Assembly (NCBI GenBank): GCA_003225595.1
Contig: QIAR01000077.1
Location: 1 to 39,570, forward strand
Direction: 5' to 3'
DNA length: 39,570 nucleotides
Source of the DNA: Acidobacteriota bacterium
GTDB lineage: Bacteria; Acidobacteriota; Terriglobia; Terriglobales; Acidobacteriaceae
The notes under the pieces were generated by a model, which made no database searches, was not told the DNA's origin, and saw nothing but the letters and a program-made list of their open reading frames with translations. Numbering within the stretch: the stretch's first letter is position 1; each line of letters opens with the position of its first letter. Of this stretch, positions 1,351-29,566 are shown piece by piece. Both the position numbers and the translations under genes were made by a program.

Positions 1351-2202
1351 GAATCGAAGGCGGCCCGGTGAGGAGACAGCCCGTTCCGAAGGATATGTGT
1401 GCCCCGCGACCTTATGAATTGCTAGCTGGGTTTCAGACTGCAGAAAAAGACTCACCCACCGAGAGTAGCCGCTGTCATAGTTCTATTCGCAGGACAGCCC
1501 GTGGTGCCGTGGTGGATTGTGGTGCCATTTCATCATTGCAAGCTCTATAGGACATAAAGGTGGTTGATCCGCTTGTGTGCGCATACCTATTGCGCCGCCA
1601 CGACTCGCCACAAGCGCCACGCGATGTTCTCCTTCTGCACATCCTGCTGTCGCTGCGGTTCTCCGCAGCGTGACCGTGTCCTCGGCGAACACCGCGCTTC
1701 GCTCAGGCCTGTTACTGCCTAATGTACCGCGGAACCTGCTTGATAGTTCCTGAGACACGCTTCCATCTGCCAGCGGCATCATGCCACAAGCCGCCGCTAC
1801 TCCCTAACAACGGGTTAAGCATCGCGGTCACCGCCGGTGTGGATCCGGCCTTCAATACTTCTCGTCGCGTCAGATTCCTCATTGCCCCTCAGCGCAGGTG
1901 ACTTTCTATCATAGGGCCGCGGATCGCGCTGCTTTCGCACGCCAGGTAGCACATAGAGAGGGCCATTCGCAATCGACGCAAGCAGCGGGAGTGTGGGCTG
2001 AGTGTAGCAATAGGGAATTGGGCTTCGGAACTGACTCGGTTCACGAAGCCCACAGGTTGCCAGCATCCTTCCACGCCGCCGCCCCTTTTTGACCGCAACG
2101 TTCCCGGTGCTGTACCAATCTGCAATATTGGACGCAAGGCTTGATTTGGAACTCAAACCGACTTGCGCCTGAGGACTGAAACGGTACAATGACGCCCGGA
2201 GT

Positions 2203-2250
2203 ATGTCAACGATAATCGCAAGGTATACTGCTGGTATACTCTGGTATACT
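2203..2250 (+). promoter_or_regulatory. Candidate GntR operator: shared 15-mer ATGTCAACGATAATC plus three GGTATACT direct repeats
   Basis: ATGTCAACGATAATC at 2203-2217; GGTATACT at 2222-2229, 2233-2240 and 2243-2250 (spacing 11 and 10 bp). About 100 bp upstream of the GntR-A start; same 15-mer recurs upstream of GntR-B. Confidence 0.7.
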
Positions 2251-2347: not shown

Positions 2348-3097
2348 ATGCCTACTGCATCAACGATGGAACGGAAGACTAGGGGCGCAACCGGGTCCAC
2401 GGGATTCTCTTATGCGCCTGCGTACCAAACTGTCGATAAACTGAGCGAGCGTGTTTACCAGTCGCTCAAGCGCGACATCATCACTGGGATTTTGCGGCCC
2501 GGTGAAGCGGTGACCGAGAAGGATCTCGCGGGACGATACAAATCAAGCCGCACTCCAGTTCGCGAAGCGGCCCTCCGATTGGAAGAGCAGAACCTGCTGC
2601 AGAACATTCCCAATAGAGGGTACTTCGTGACACATCTAACCGTAAACGATCTCAACGACATCTACGAATATCGGTTGTCAGTCGAGTGCACTAGTGCGGA
2701 ATTAGCTGCCAGTAGGGGTATTCCAGGCAACAATCTGTCAGAGTTGAACAAGCTTGGGAGTCGGCGCAGTCGACCCGATAGCCGCGCCAGTTTTGAGGAG
2801 TTCATCGCAGCCGATACCGCTTTCCACGTCAATATAGCTCGCCTGACGCGGAACCCTCTGCTGGTGAGGGCAGTATCTGATATGAGGTGTCAGATGGAGC
2901 GCATCCTCTTTGCAGGCATAGACGCCCTGGACACCTCTTACTACTACGGCGACTTGCCAGTTCATGGGCATCAAGGAATACTACGTGCGATCAAAGAGGG
3001 TAATGTGAAGCTGGCGAGGAAACTTATGCACGAACACATAATGAGTGCAAAGGAAGAAGTCATCCAACTGGCACAGAATGGATCAAGGCTGATCTGA
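2348..3097 (+). CDS. GntR family (FCD/FadR-type) transcriptional regulator A
   Basis: wHTH signature LSERVYQSLKRDIITGILRPGEAVTEKDLAGRYKSSRTPVREAALRLEEQNLL, followed by an FCD-like helical domain. ATG at 2348 preceded by GAGGTGAG; the ORF track start at 2270 is probably too long. Confidence 0.9.
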   Translation: MPTASTMERKTRGATGSTGFSYAPAYQTVDKLSERVYQSLKRDIITGILRPGEAVTEKDLAGRYKSSRTPVREAALRLEEQNLLQNIPNRGYFVTHLTVNDLNDIYEYRLSVECTSAELAASRGIPGNNLSELNKLGSRRSRPDSRASFEEFIAADTAFHVNIARLTRNPLLVRAVSDMRCQMERILFAGIDALDTSYYYGDLPVHGHQGILRAIKEGNVKLARKLMHEHIMSAKEEVIQLAQNGSRLI

Positions 3098-25733: not shown

Positions 25734-26459
25734 TTACAGAAACCGCACGTCACGGCGGGCGAGATCGAGTACCTTCTGCTTCCCTCCGATGATGTGTTCG
25801 CGCATGAGCCGCCGGGCAAGCTCAGGATCGTTGCGCAAGATGGCTCGAAGGATGCCCATGTGTTCCCGCGCCGGAATCTCTCCGTAGTAACGCACGTCAA
25901 TCGCGTCAGTGGCCGCAAACATGATGCGCTCCGTTTGTGCGCGCATTTGCGCTACGGCTCTTACCAGCAAAGCATTGTGGGTCAGTCGAGCGATGCCGAG
26001 ATGGAAAGCGGTGTCAGCCTCGATGAACGCGCCGAATTCTCCCTCACGTTCGGCGCGGAAGCAGGCGGATGATTCCAACTCCGCAAGTGCCTGCGGCGGA
26101 ATCTTGGCGCCACATAAGAGTTCGGCGCAAGCACACTCGACGGCGGCACGGTATTCGTAAACATCGTTCATTCCCTGAATCGTGAGCTGCGTCACGAAAT
26201 AGCCGCGATTGGCGATGATCCGGACCAGTTCTTCTTCTTGCAGCCGTACGGCCGCCTCGCGCACCGGAGTACGGCTCGCCGTGTACTTGTGCGCCAGATC
26301 CTTCTCGGTGAATGCCTGACCAGGCCGCAGGACTCCGGTAATGATGTCTTTTTTCAGAGCGGCGTAAACCCGTTCGGTCAGAGGTAACTTTGGTTCACTT
26401 ACAGGCAGGGTAGAGGCCACCGGACCCTTGGTCTCCGCACGTCGAGAGGCAGCTTTCAT
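25734..26459 (-). CDS. GntR family (FCD/FadR-type) transcriptional regulator B
   Basis: LTERVYAALKKDIITGVLRPGQAFTEKDLAHKYTASRTPVREAAVRLQEEELVRIIANRGYFVTQLT; closely resembles GntR-A throughout the wHTH. Confidence 0.92.
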   Translation of the reverse strand: MKAASRRAETKGPVASTLPVSEPKLPLTERVYAALKKDIITGVLRPGQAFTEKDLAHKYTASRTPVREAAVRLQEEELVRIIANRGYFVTQLTIQGMNDVYEYRAAVECACAELLCGAKIPPQALAELESSACFRAEREGEFGAFIEADTAFHLGIARLTHNALLVRAVAQMRAQTERIMFAATDAIDVRYYGEIPAREHMGILRAILRNDPELARRLMREHIIGGKQKVLDLARRDVRFL

Positions 26460-26480: not shown

Positions 26481-26536
26481 AGTATAGCAAGATCGTATGC
26501 ATACATAAAGTATACAAGTAAGATTATCGTTGACAT
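26481..26536. promoter_or_regulatory. Divergent regulatory region between GntR-B and TonB receptor B with GTATAC-type repeats
   Basis: GATTATCGTTGACAT (26522-26536) is the reverse complement of the 15-mer at 2203-2217. GTATAC at 26510-26515, palindrome GTATGCATAC at 26495-26504, AGTATAG at 26481-26487. TTGACA (26530-26535) with a 17-bp spacer to TAGTTT (26553-26558) could serve the TonB gene. Confidence 0.65.
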
Positions 26537-26632
26537 GGCAGACGACTGGTGTTAGTTTCCCGGCGGTTAGCTGGAGTTGTGAACTGCTTGTCGCTGCGCG
26601 GCCCGCGTTGGACTGCGCCGAGGGGGCGAATT

Positions 26633-29566
26633 ATGAACATCCGCAGTTCTTGCCGGGCCGTCGTCGTGTCAGCATTCGTGTTTTTCTTGCTGGCACCGGT
26701 ACTCGTGCAGGGGCAGCTGCCTAGCAATGGCGAAGTGACGGGCATCGTCGTGGACGCCAGCGGGGCAGCTGTCCCTGGTGCGAGCGTGTCCTTGATCGAT
26801 ACGGCTACTTCCGCCTCGCAGCGTTCGAAAACGGATTCCTCGGGGAATTTTGTCTTCCACGCGGTGGTTCCCGGTACCTACGACCTGACCGCCGCAGCAA
26901 GCGGTTTCCAGAAAGCAGAGGTGCGGGATGTGGTCGTGCTTGTCGGCAAAACAACCGATCAGCATGTGAAACTCGCGATAACAGGCGGTAAAGAAGTGGT
27001 GGAAGTCTCGGCCGAACCGCCCGTACTTCAGGGATCCCGGTCAGAGATAGGTCAGGTAATAGAGCGAAAGGAACTCGATTCGCTCCCTCTAAAGACGCGG
27101 GACTTCTCGGATCTCGCGACCCTCGTTCCACAAGTGGTGCGGACTCCCGTGATCGACCCAACCAAGCAGCGCGTCGGTAACATTAGCGTTGCGGGCACAG
27201 GTGGACGGCAGTCGAACGTGTATGTCGACGGCTTCGAGAACTATGATTTCGTTATCGGCGGACTCGCTTACGACGTCAGTCCCGATGCCATCCAGGAGTT
27301 CAACGTCGTAACCACTCGCTTCACGGCGGAGCAAGCGCGCTCGATGGGCGCGCTCATCAATATTGTGGAGCGGTCGGGCACGAACCGTCTCCATGGCTCG
27401 GGATTTTTCTTCTTCCGCAACCAAGATCTTAGTGCTCTCGATTATTTCCAAACCACCAAGAGTGATTTCCATCGTTATGAATCGGGCGGCGCCATTGGGG
27501 GACCGGTTAAGAAAGACAAGTTCTTCCTGTTTGGCACTTTTGAAGACCACCACGAACTGGACACCGGGATCGTGAATACCAATGGGCACTATCCTCAGTT
27601 CGAAGGCAACTTCCCATTGCCGTTCCGTCGTGATTTTGTCACCACGAAGGCGGATTACAACATCAACAGCCGGCACCGGCTGTCTTACATTTTTAATCTG
27701 GATGATTTCAACGCAGCAGAGAACGTGGGCGGGATCCGCGCATTGTCAAATGGTCGCCACGACATCACCAGGACTAGTTCGAATGCGGCCAGTGAGACCT
27801 GGGTCATATCTCCCAACAAGGTAAATACGGTCGGCTATCAATATTTTCACTTCAATAACCTGTTGCAGTCCTTCTCTCCTCCCAGCCCACAATTTACGAG
27901 GCCCGATCTCATCACCGGGGAGCGCACCGGCGACCCCCAGGGCACGACCGAAGTTCGCTCGCAGGTGCGCGATGACTTCGTTTGGTCGAAAGGCAGCCAC
28001 AGTATCAAGTTAGGCGGCGAATATCACCACGTCAACGGCTCGGCGTTCATCGACTTTGCCACGCATGGACAGTTCATCTTCTTCACCGATGCCCCATTGG
28101 ATGCTCCTAACGCCGACCTCCTGGTGCAGAGCGCATGCAACACGCCGGGATGCGAAATGGGAGATCTTACAAGCCAGATTCTCGGCTTCTATATGCACGA
28201 TGATTGGAAGGTACTTCCCAATCTGACCCTTAATGTGGGGCTTAGATGGGATTACTTCAGCAATGAGAATAATAAGAACTTTGACGGGATTCTAGGATTA
28301 CTCGCGCCTCCCGGCAGTCGCCATTCCAATAAGAAAAACTTCTCGCCACGCATTGGCTTCGCCTACGATCCGTTCAAGAAAGGCAAGTTCGTCATCCGTG
28401 GTGGCTACGGCATCTATTACGCGAACATCAATCTTCTGGATGGCATCGTGGAGCGCGGATTTGATGGGAGGAATATCGGCTTCCGCGTCTTCTTCAATCC
28501 CGGCGCAATTAACATCGCTAATCCGTTCCCAGGTTTGACTCCACAACAGGTTCACGACCAGTTCTTCGGTCCGCCACAGGACCCACTGGGTGCGCTTGAC
28601 AACAATTTGCGCACGCCCTACGTGCAGTACTGGTCCGGTGGCTTTCAGTGGGACCTCAGCAAGGGGTTCGTGCTGAGCGTGGATGGCGTCCACTCTCTGG
28701 GCCTCAAAGGAATCCTTTCACGAGACAGCAATGTTGACCCGGCATTCAACATCGCCGTGCCGGCAGCGCCTTTGTGCCAGCAGTTCGGAATGTCGGTATG
28801 CAGTCAGTTTGGGGCGACTACCTGGATCAGCAACGGTGATACTTTGAAGTACAACGCCTTCATCATCGCGTTGAACAAGAGCCTGTCGCAACGCTTCCAG
28901 TTCAACACGTCCTACACATTGTCGAAAGCCGAAAACCTCTACAACGAAACCGTGGGTTCAGGTGGAGACAACCTCTCCAATCCGTTCAATTACCAGGCGG
29001 ACCAGGGAGCCGCCGTCACTGACCAACGGCATCGCTTCATCTTCAGTGCGATCGTCGACCCCAGTCACTTGCCTCCGTTCTTTGGCAACGGATGGGAGCT
29101 AGCCCTGATTTCGAGCTACAACACGCCACTGCCCTACGACATTACCGCGGGCACTCAGTCCGATGGGATTACCCCGCTGCGTCCGGTGGGAATTACCCGC
29201 AACGATGGTAACCGTGCATCGCAGTCCACGTTGTTGGCCCATATCAATGCTTATCGTGCAAGCCAGGGGTTGCCTCTCATCAACCGGCAGCTGACGCCGA
29301 ATGATCTGAACTTTCGCTCCACAGACCTGCGGCTCAGCCGGACGATTGCGCTCGGCGAGCGCTTCCGGCTTCGCTTGCAGGGCGAGGTGTTCAACCTCTT
29401 GAACTCTCCCAACTTCATCTCGAACAGCGGGCACGCTGGGTTCGGCGTGTCTGGAATCGTGGGAGACGCGAACTCCTCGTCTGTCGGCTTACCGACTTCC
29501 ACGCCCGGTGTACTCGGCGTCGGGGGACCTAGAGCGTTCCAGTTGTCGGCGCGGGTTTTGTTCTGA
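26633..29566 (+). CDS. TonB-dependent receptor with N-terminal carboxypeptidase-regulatory-like domain (Oar-like) B
   Basis: GEVTGIVVDASGAAVPGASVSLIDTATSASQRSKTDSSGNFVFHAVVPGTYDLTAAASGFQK; plug ERKELDSLPLKTRDFSDLATLVP; C-terminal RAFQLSARVLF. ATG at 26633 after GAGGGGG. Confidence 0.92.
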   Translation: MNIRSSCRAVVVSAFVFFLLAPVLVQGQLPSNGEVTGIVVDASGAAVPGASVSLIDTATSASQRSKTDSSGNFVFHAVVPGTYDLTAAASGFQKAEVRDVVVLVGKTTDQHVKLAITGGKEVVEVSAEPPVLQGSRSEIGQVIERKELDSLPLKTRDFSDLATLVPQVVRTPVIDPTKQRVGNISVAGTGGRQSNVYVDGFENYDFVIGGLAYDVSPDAIQEFNVVTTRFTAEQARSMGALINIVERSGTNRLHGSGFFFFRNQDLSALDYFQTTKSDFHRYESGGAIGGPVKKDKFFLFGTFEDHHELDTGIVNTNGHYPQFEGNFPLPFRRDFVTTKADYNINSRHRLSYIFNLDDFNAAENVGGIRALSNGRHDITRTSSNAASETWVISPNKVNTVGYQYFHFNNLLQSFSPPSPQFTRPDLITGERTGDPQGTTEVRSQVRDDFVWSKGSHSIKLGGEYHHVNGSAFIDFATHGQFIFFTDAPLDAPNADLLVQSACNTPGCEMGDLTSQILGFYMHDDWKVLPNLTLNVGLRWDYFSNENNKNFDGILGLLAPPGSRHSNKKNFSPRIGFAYDPFKKGKFVIRGGYGIYYANINLLDGIVERGFDGRNIGFRVFFNPGAINIANPFPGLTPQQVHDQFFGPPQDPLGALDNNLRTPYVQYWSGGFQWDLSKGFVLSVDGVHSLGLKGILSRDSNVDPAFNIAVPAAPLCQQFGMSVCSQFGATTWISNGDTLKYNAFIIALNKSLSQRFQFNTSYTLSKAENLYNETVGSGGDNLSNPFNYQADQGAAVTDQRHRFIFSAIVDPSHLPPFFGNGWELALISSYNTPLPYDITAGTQSDGITPLRPVGITRNDGNRASQSTLLAHINAYRASQGLPLINRQLTPNDLNFRSTDLRLSRTIALGERFRLRLQGEVFNLLNSPNFISNSGHAGFGVSGIVGDANSSSVGLPTSTPGVLGVGGPRAFQLSARVLF

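Follow-up and report, generated by a model that had tools for sequence, protein, structure and literature searches.

Comparative sequence analysis points to an operator-promoter module of VanR-like GntR/FCD regulators in Acidobacteria

Results

Two GntR/FCD regulator genes share an upstream element

The window, by which we mean the whole 39,570-nucleotide stretch of acidobacterial DNA analysed here, holds two regulator genes of the GntR/FCD type, gntR-A and gntR-B, the second of them divergent from a gene for a TonB receptor, TonB receptor B (Table 1). The likely ATG start of gntR-A lies in a frame open from 2270, and that of TonB receptor B follows GAGGGGG in a frame open from 26549. Upstream of both regulators we found the 15-mer ATGTCAACGATAATC, confirming the preliminary description, which had reported an exact 15-bp match in the same orientation relative to each regulator and GTATAC-type repeats following it in both places. 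These repeats, which we call boxes and regard as putative operator sites, read TGGTATRC towards the regulator gene in most cases and so form a direct repeat with members 11 bp apart; module A has three. Box 2 of A can also be read as an extended -10 towards gntR-A, and box 2 of B sits inside GTATGCATAC (26495-26504). Towards the target gene, the layout runs box 2, 5 bp, box 1, 13-15 bp, TTGACAT, 16-18 bp and TAnnnT. With the core GT-N2-AC at the regulator's own promoter (boxes GTATRC/GTATAC), the element bears the GntR operator signature N(y)GT-N(x)-AC-N(y) (PMC7797058, PMC4494728), and the TGGTATRC pairs 11 bp apart have the layout of a tandem operator of the NanR kind, with at least two direct GGTATA-type repeats at fixed spacing. 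No Rfam match that would indicate an RNA leader or riboswitch was found in the window.

Table 1. Positions of the shared element, its parts and the adjoining genes in modules A and B of the window
Feature	Position	Strand	Evidence or remark
-10-like TACCGT, 17 bp from -35	2181..2186	-	Kept in related genome AA123 (L040); no intact gene downstream
15-mer copy A, ATGTCAACGATAATC	2203..2217	+	Exact match; genome holds only two exact copies
-35 hexamer TTGACA, leftward promoter away from gntR-A	2204..2209	-	Sequence; alignment to 15 orthologous elements
Operator box 1 of A (GGTATAC), putative	2223..2228	+	13 bp from TGTCAA, a spacing shared with orthologs
Operator box 2 of A (TGGTATACT), putative	2234..2239	+	11 bp from box 1; kept in AA123
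Third box of A (TGGTATACT)	2244..2249	+	10 bp from box 2; not conserved in AA123
gntR-A, GntR + FCD regulator	2348..3097	+	Pfam PF00392, PF07729; 55% identical to gntR-B
gntR-B, GntR + FCD regulator	25734..26459	-	Pfam; VanR-like predicted fold
TATACT after TGC, likely extended -10 of gntR-B	26481..26486	-	Sequence; conserved in L039
Operator box 2 of B (GTATGC on minus strand), putative	26499..26504	-	11 bp from box 1
Operator box 1 of B (GTATAC), putative	26510..26515	-	14 bp from TGTCAA
15-mer copy B, ATGTCAACGATAATC	26522..26536	-	Exact match
-35 hexamer TTGACA of TonB receptor B promoter	26530..26535	+	Sequence; orthologous promoter alignment
-10-like TAGTTT, 17 bp from -35, TG just before	26553..26558	+	Orthologous promoter alignment
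TonB receptor B, target gene	26633..29566	+	Homologs divergent from gntR in other genomes

A search of the whole genome (5.05 Mb in 814 contigs) returned these two exact copies of ATGTCAACGATAATC, both beside GntR genes, and neither a third exact copy nor one with a single mismatch; the next-best matches, nine in number, each have two mismatches, and the 15-mer is no general genome repeat. Within the window, the repeat alone is not significant, because composition leads one to expect about 0.9 direct and 2.0 inverted 15-mer pairs, and one direct and two inverted pairs were seen. An 11-mer is common to 1.3% of random pairs, and a 15-mer common to the 250-bp upstream stretches of both regulators in one orientation would be unlikely by chance (about 6e-5, extrapolated from the 11-mer rate). 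Outside the shared element, the upstream stretches of gntR-A and gntR-B do not align. We regard conservation in other genomes as the decisive evidence for a shared element.

The element recurs beside related regulators

Close GntR-B homologs occur in 10 of 399 genomes of the class, the window's own counted. Twenty-two acidobacterial records (L039-L060) hold GntR-B homologs that are 46-58% identical, with a 95% identical copy in genome AA123, which carries both regulators (L039 and L040). Upstream stretches of the orthologs repeat the layout TGTCAA, 13-15 bp, GTATRY, 5 bp and GTATRC, as exemplified by ATGTCAACGAAAATCTTATGGTATAC in L042 and ATGTCAAGAGAATGGTTCTTGTATGCGAGTGGTATAC in L055. Near-GTATAC boxes paired at 11 bp were present in 7 of the 21 non-window orthologs, compared with 0.03 in dinucleotide shuffles (other spacings gave at most 1), TGTCAA-N13-15-GTATRY in 8 of 21 compared with 0.003, and looser boxes at 11 bp in 13 of 21 compared with 0.11, comparisons that overstate significance because related sequences (L041/L045, L047/L055, L042/L043/L053 and L048/L054) are not independent. 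For the loosest boxes, spacings of 9 and 13 were also somewhat in excess. At least five separate clades of the regulator tree carry the layout, and the element extends to further families of Acidobacteria. L042, L043 and L053 have a weak box 2, and no clear element was found in L058 or L060. Two records have rows of box-like words in 11-bp steps, resembling the three boxes of module A: GCATGC/GCATTC/GTATGC about 200-240 bases upstream of the gntR match in L046, and GTATGT/GTATAC/GTATGC about 550 bases upstream of the match in L057.

Both copies in the window fit the full layout with 0 mismatches; no other place in the window has fewer than three, nor does any in about 1 Mb of simulated sequence. 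In roughly 340 kb of ortholog flanks, all strict matches lie between regulator and target or ahead of the target. Across the 399 genomes, the full pattern has seven sites and a reversed control none; six of the seven adjoin gntR homologs, and the seventh (G378) lies between an aminotransferase gene and a broken gntR. That the 15-mer and its repeats mark a common cis-element, as first proposed, is thus upheld both by the rarity of the 15-mer and by the tie of the element to this GntR family across genomes. At the seventh site (L152, G378:C254, 331-640), the full element is followed by a gntR that loses homology after about 40 residues, either a broken gene or an assembly fault.

Several partial matches were not retained as operators. 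GTATRY-N5-GTATRC occurs at two other places in the same genome, inside moaC and where an acetyltransferase gene begins, and we attribute both to chance. Other TGTCAA-GTATRC pairs do not match the spacing, and three further TGTCAA-N13-15-GTATRY places, two of which are one repeated sequence, come without a second perfect box.

The 15-mer carries the -35 hexamer of a divergent target promoter

Read away from the regulator, TGTCAA becomes TTGACA, a perfect -35 hexamer, and in 13 of 16 elements TA...T stands 16-18 bp beyond it, compared with 0.6 in shuffles, the arrangement of a sigma-70 type promoter. The TTGACA that the preliminary description saw pointing away from the regulator accordingly reads as the -35 of the divergent gene's promoter, which in module B is that of TonB receptor B. 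The TonB receptor B transcript is predicted to start near 26565 and to have an untranslated leader of about 70 bases before the ATG. The divergent gene encodes a TonB receptor in module B, L042, L043, L047 and L053, an aminotransferase in L044, L046, L049 and L055, and an amidohydrolase in L041, L045 and L056. In L048 and L054, aminotransferase and TonB genes flank the element at a distance of 5.6 kb from gntR, and its TTGACA points to the aminotransferase gene; in L044 (more weakly in L041 and L045) it comes after gntR, ahead of a TonB gene. This travelling of the element with the target (L048, L054 and L044) suggests that it is an operator-promoter of the target and not a feature of the regulator gene alone, with the 15-mer as the target promoter's extended -35 and the boxes as the probable GntR operator. 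We considered the 15-mer as the regulator's own binding site and set this aside: orthologs conserve only its TGTCAA and an A/T-rich stretch, the pattern one would look for in an extended -35, and the boxes are conserved separately.

In L047 (9915-9945) and L055 (6738-6770), TTGACA lies 2-3 bases past box 2 and is followed after 17 bp by AAGAAT, reading towards gntR, so that the boxes there sit between two back-to-back promoters.

The outward promoter of module A is intact in sequence and also present in AA123. Open frames, tblastx and tblastn revealed no intact target gene to the left of gntR-A; synteny with AA123 runs out at about 2013, and no such element precedes the gene for TonB receptor A. 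Because an intact outward gene is missing and TonB receptor A is without the element, gntR-A itself is probably what the operator in A serves, and its outward promoter may be left over from an earlier arrangement. That promoter (2181-2209) points into a stretch without an intact gene, extending leftwards to 1700. Within it, at 1712-1882, the minus strand carries a twin-arginine-like leader fragment (MRNLTRREVLKAGS...), perhaps a decayed target.

The regulators are VanR-like

GntR-A and GntR-B both score above cut-off for PF00392 and PF07729, which places them in the FCD (FadR/VanR) group of the GntR superfamily. The predicted model of GntR-B (pLDDT 87.7) has six main helices after the wing, not seven, as in the VanR subgroup. 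Its best fold matches are 7u5q, Atu1419 (including the Atu1419-DNA complex), McbR and AlkR; the match to NanR is weak (TM about 0.4), that to FadR is also poor, and the NanR family model gives 55.3 and 50.3 bits against a cut-off of 260, which leaves the proteins outside that family of sialic acid repressors. The regulator is thus VanR-like and closest to Atu1419. GntR-B residues E52, R63, T64, R67 and G86 correspond to Glu34, Arg45, Thr46, Arg49 and Gly66 of Atu1419 and are invariant, and the putative FCD metal ligands, one Asp and three His (D149, H153, H200 and H222), are invariant in 27 sequences. Start codons permitting, the winged helix of the orthologs is preceded by about 20-45 N-terminal residues rich in Arg and Lys. 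GntR-A and GntR-B are 1.15 changes per site apart, close to the distance to other clades, and we take gntR-A and gntR-B to be ancient paralogs.

The two regulators had been described as sharing nearly the same recognition region. The likeness stands, in that the DNA-contact residues are the same in A and B; these residues are also invariant in distant GntR/FCD proteins, and recognition-helix identity was set aside as evidence for cross-regulation of A and B. Since the contact residues are the same and the sites nearly identical, each regulator may bind the other's site. Cross-regulation is plausible, and GntR1 and GntR2 of Corynebacterium glutamicum, paralogous FCD GntR gluconate sensors that act redundantly on shared promoters and can either repress or activate, depending on the gene, offer a precedent for shared control; there, redundancy was shown by deletion (PMC2230225), and for A and B it is a possibility.

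Discussion

The element is very probably a conserved operator-promoter module of a VanR-like GntR/FCD regulator in Acidobacteria, with binding inferred from the sequence. We read the control switch as the 15-mer, serving as the front part of a promoter, together with the nearby TGGTATAC-like boxes next to one GntR family, and it probably governs the uptake and breakdown of an amino-acid-like nutrient. Regulator dimers would bind the boxes on one face of the helix, with predicted centres near -52 and -63 from the target start (-52.5 and -63.5 in module B), one helical turn apart. From this fixed upstream position the regulator would contact RNA polymerase and activate the target promoter, and it would repress its own gene through boxes that overlap or adjoin that gene's -10. 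In module B, the boxes would serve TonB receptor B and lie in or just upstream of the promoter of gntR-B itself. A metal-chelating ligand, carboxylate or amino-acid-like, would act with the regulator to switch nutrient transport and breakdown.

Several characterised regulators invite comparison. Atu1419 of Agrobacterium fabrum (PDB 6ZA3) is a VanR-type FCD GntR repressor that recognises GTATAC-centred palindromes (ATGTATACAT) in two places, its own divergent promoter and a second target, the sites lying 190 bp apart and overlapping the -10 or the -35/-10 spacer (PMC7797058). The acidobacterial regulators share its GntR and FCD domains, are close to it in sequence and fold, and have its Glu, Arg, Thr, Arg and Gly contacts and the FCD metal ligands; the boxes here, however, repeat directly with an 11-bp step and lie ahead of the target -35, and the target genes of Atu1419 differ. 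NanR of Escherichia coli, an FCD GntR repressor, has an operator of two or three direct GGTATA repeats downstream of the polymerase site (PMC8012715). Module A likewise has GGTATAC three times, and an N-terminal extension precedes the winged helix as in NanR, whereas the repeats here follow one another at 10-11 bp and precede the target -35. CitO of Enterococcus faecalis is an FCD GntR activator with two sites between divergent operons and a metal-linked ligand (PMC4746285); it resembles our case in layout, having two sites in a divergent stretch and activating genes for uptake and breakdown, but belongs to another phylum and pathway. The element thus appears to join a known class of divergent GntR/FCD operators, with a tandem layout like that of NanR in a VanR-like protein.

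The sign of regulation divides two readings of this module. For activation of the target combined with autorepression, we put the chances at roughly even. The box-to--35 distance hardly varies, which hints at activation by contact with RNA polymerase, and autorepression is likely because boxes 2 and 3 of A form TGGTATACT extended -10s and B has TGCTATACT beside its boxes. The same module could carry the opposite sign, the regulator repressing both the divergent target and itself until released by ligand, which is quite possible though short of even: the characterised VanR/FCD relatives with such operators, Atu1419 and NanR among them, are repressors, and boxes 2 and 3 of A overlap the extended -10s of gntR-A, but the boxes keep an almost constant 13-15 bp from the target -35 on its upstream side, outside the -35/-10 core, a placement more typical of an activator or polymerase-contact site, and CitO activates from a divergent stretch (PMC4746285).

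Readings that dispense with this regulator fare worse. It is improbable that the conserved words are only the core elements of two divergent promoters, TTGACA outward and TATACT-like -10s inward, with no regulator bound. TTGACA and TATACT are indeed sigma-70 consensus words, a scan gives ATGTCA-16-TATACT towards gntR-B, and some of the box conservation may be promoter conservation, since GTATAC looks like a -10 and, in A, boxes 2 and 3 can be taken for extended -10s; yet box pairing at exactly 11 bp is no promoter feature, many orthologs would have an inward spacer of 15 bp, box 1 persists in L044 without any gene following inward, and genomes that lack this gntR have almost no instance of the full pattern. 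Attributing the element to another regulator acting on the same genes is very improbable, given that all seven full-pattern sites in the 399 genomes lie beside this gntR (broken in one case) and that the core GT-N2-AC fits the GntR signature (PMC4494728, PMC7797058). About two inverted 15-mer pairs are expected in such a window, which would allow for a chance repeat, but neither chance nor the remnant of a recent duplication of the regulator region is at all credible when the remaining upstream stretches do not align, the A and B regulators split long ago, and the element recurs in other acidobacterial families.

A bolder version of the operator-promoter module, which we hold to be rather doubtful, would have a VanR-like clade of Acidobacteria using NanR-like cooperative tandem TGGTATRC operators. 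The repeats, spaced by one turn of the helix and in a constant position upstream of the -35, would be bound with help from the basic N-terminal extension; stacked dimers would activate TonB, aminotransferase and amidohydrolase promoters; and the two ancient paralogs in this genome would share the operator code and jointly steer one catabolic island. The cooperative use of tandem repeats by NanR was described as unique among reported GntR mechanisms (PMC8012715), and the acidobacterial element would be a second natural case of tandem TGGTAT-type repeats. Our literature search found no description of this acidobacterial GntR regulon, and a comparative study of GntR motifs makes no mention of Acidobacteria. 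The module offers a specific, testable operator code with predicted target promoters, and would connect an Oar-like TonB receptor with a nutrient pathway.

The metal site and the neighbouring genes suggest that the ligand may be an amino-acid-like or cyclic amide compound. Among the neighbours are genes for class V aminotransferase, hydantoinase A and B, RidA, M28 and S9 peptidases, a cyclase, an amidohydrolase, a formamidase-like protein and APC permeases. From 2270 to 38533 the contig is largely one catabolic island, which contains several class V aminotransferase genes, two each for hydantoinase A, hydantoinase B, APC permeases and TonB receptors, and the RidA, S9 and M28 peptidase, cyclase, amidohydrolase and formamidase-like genes.
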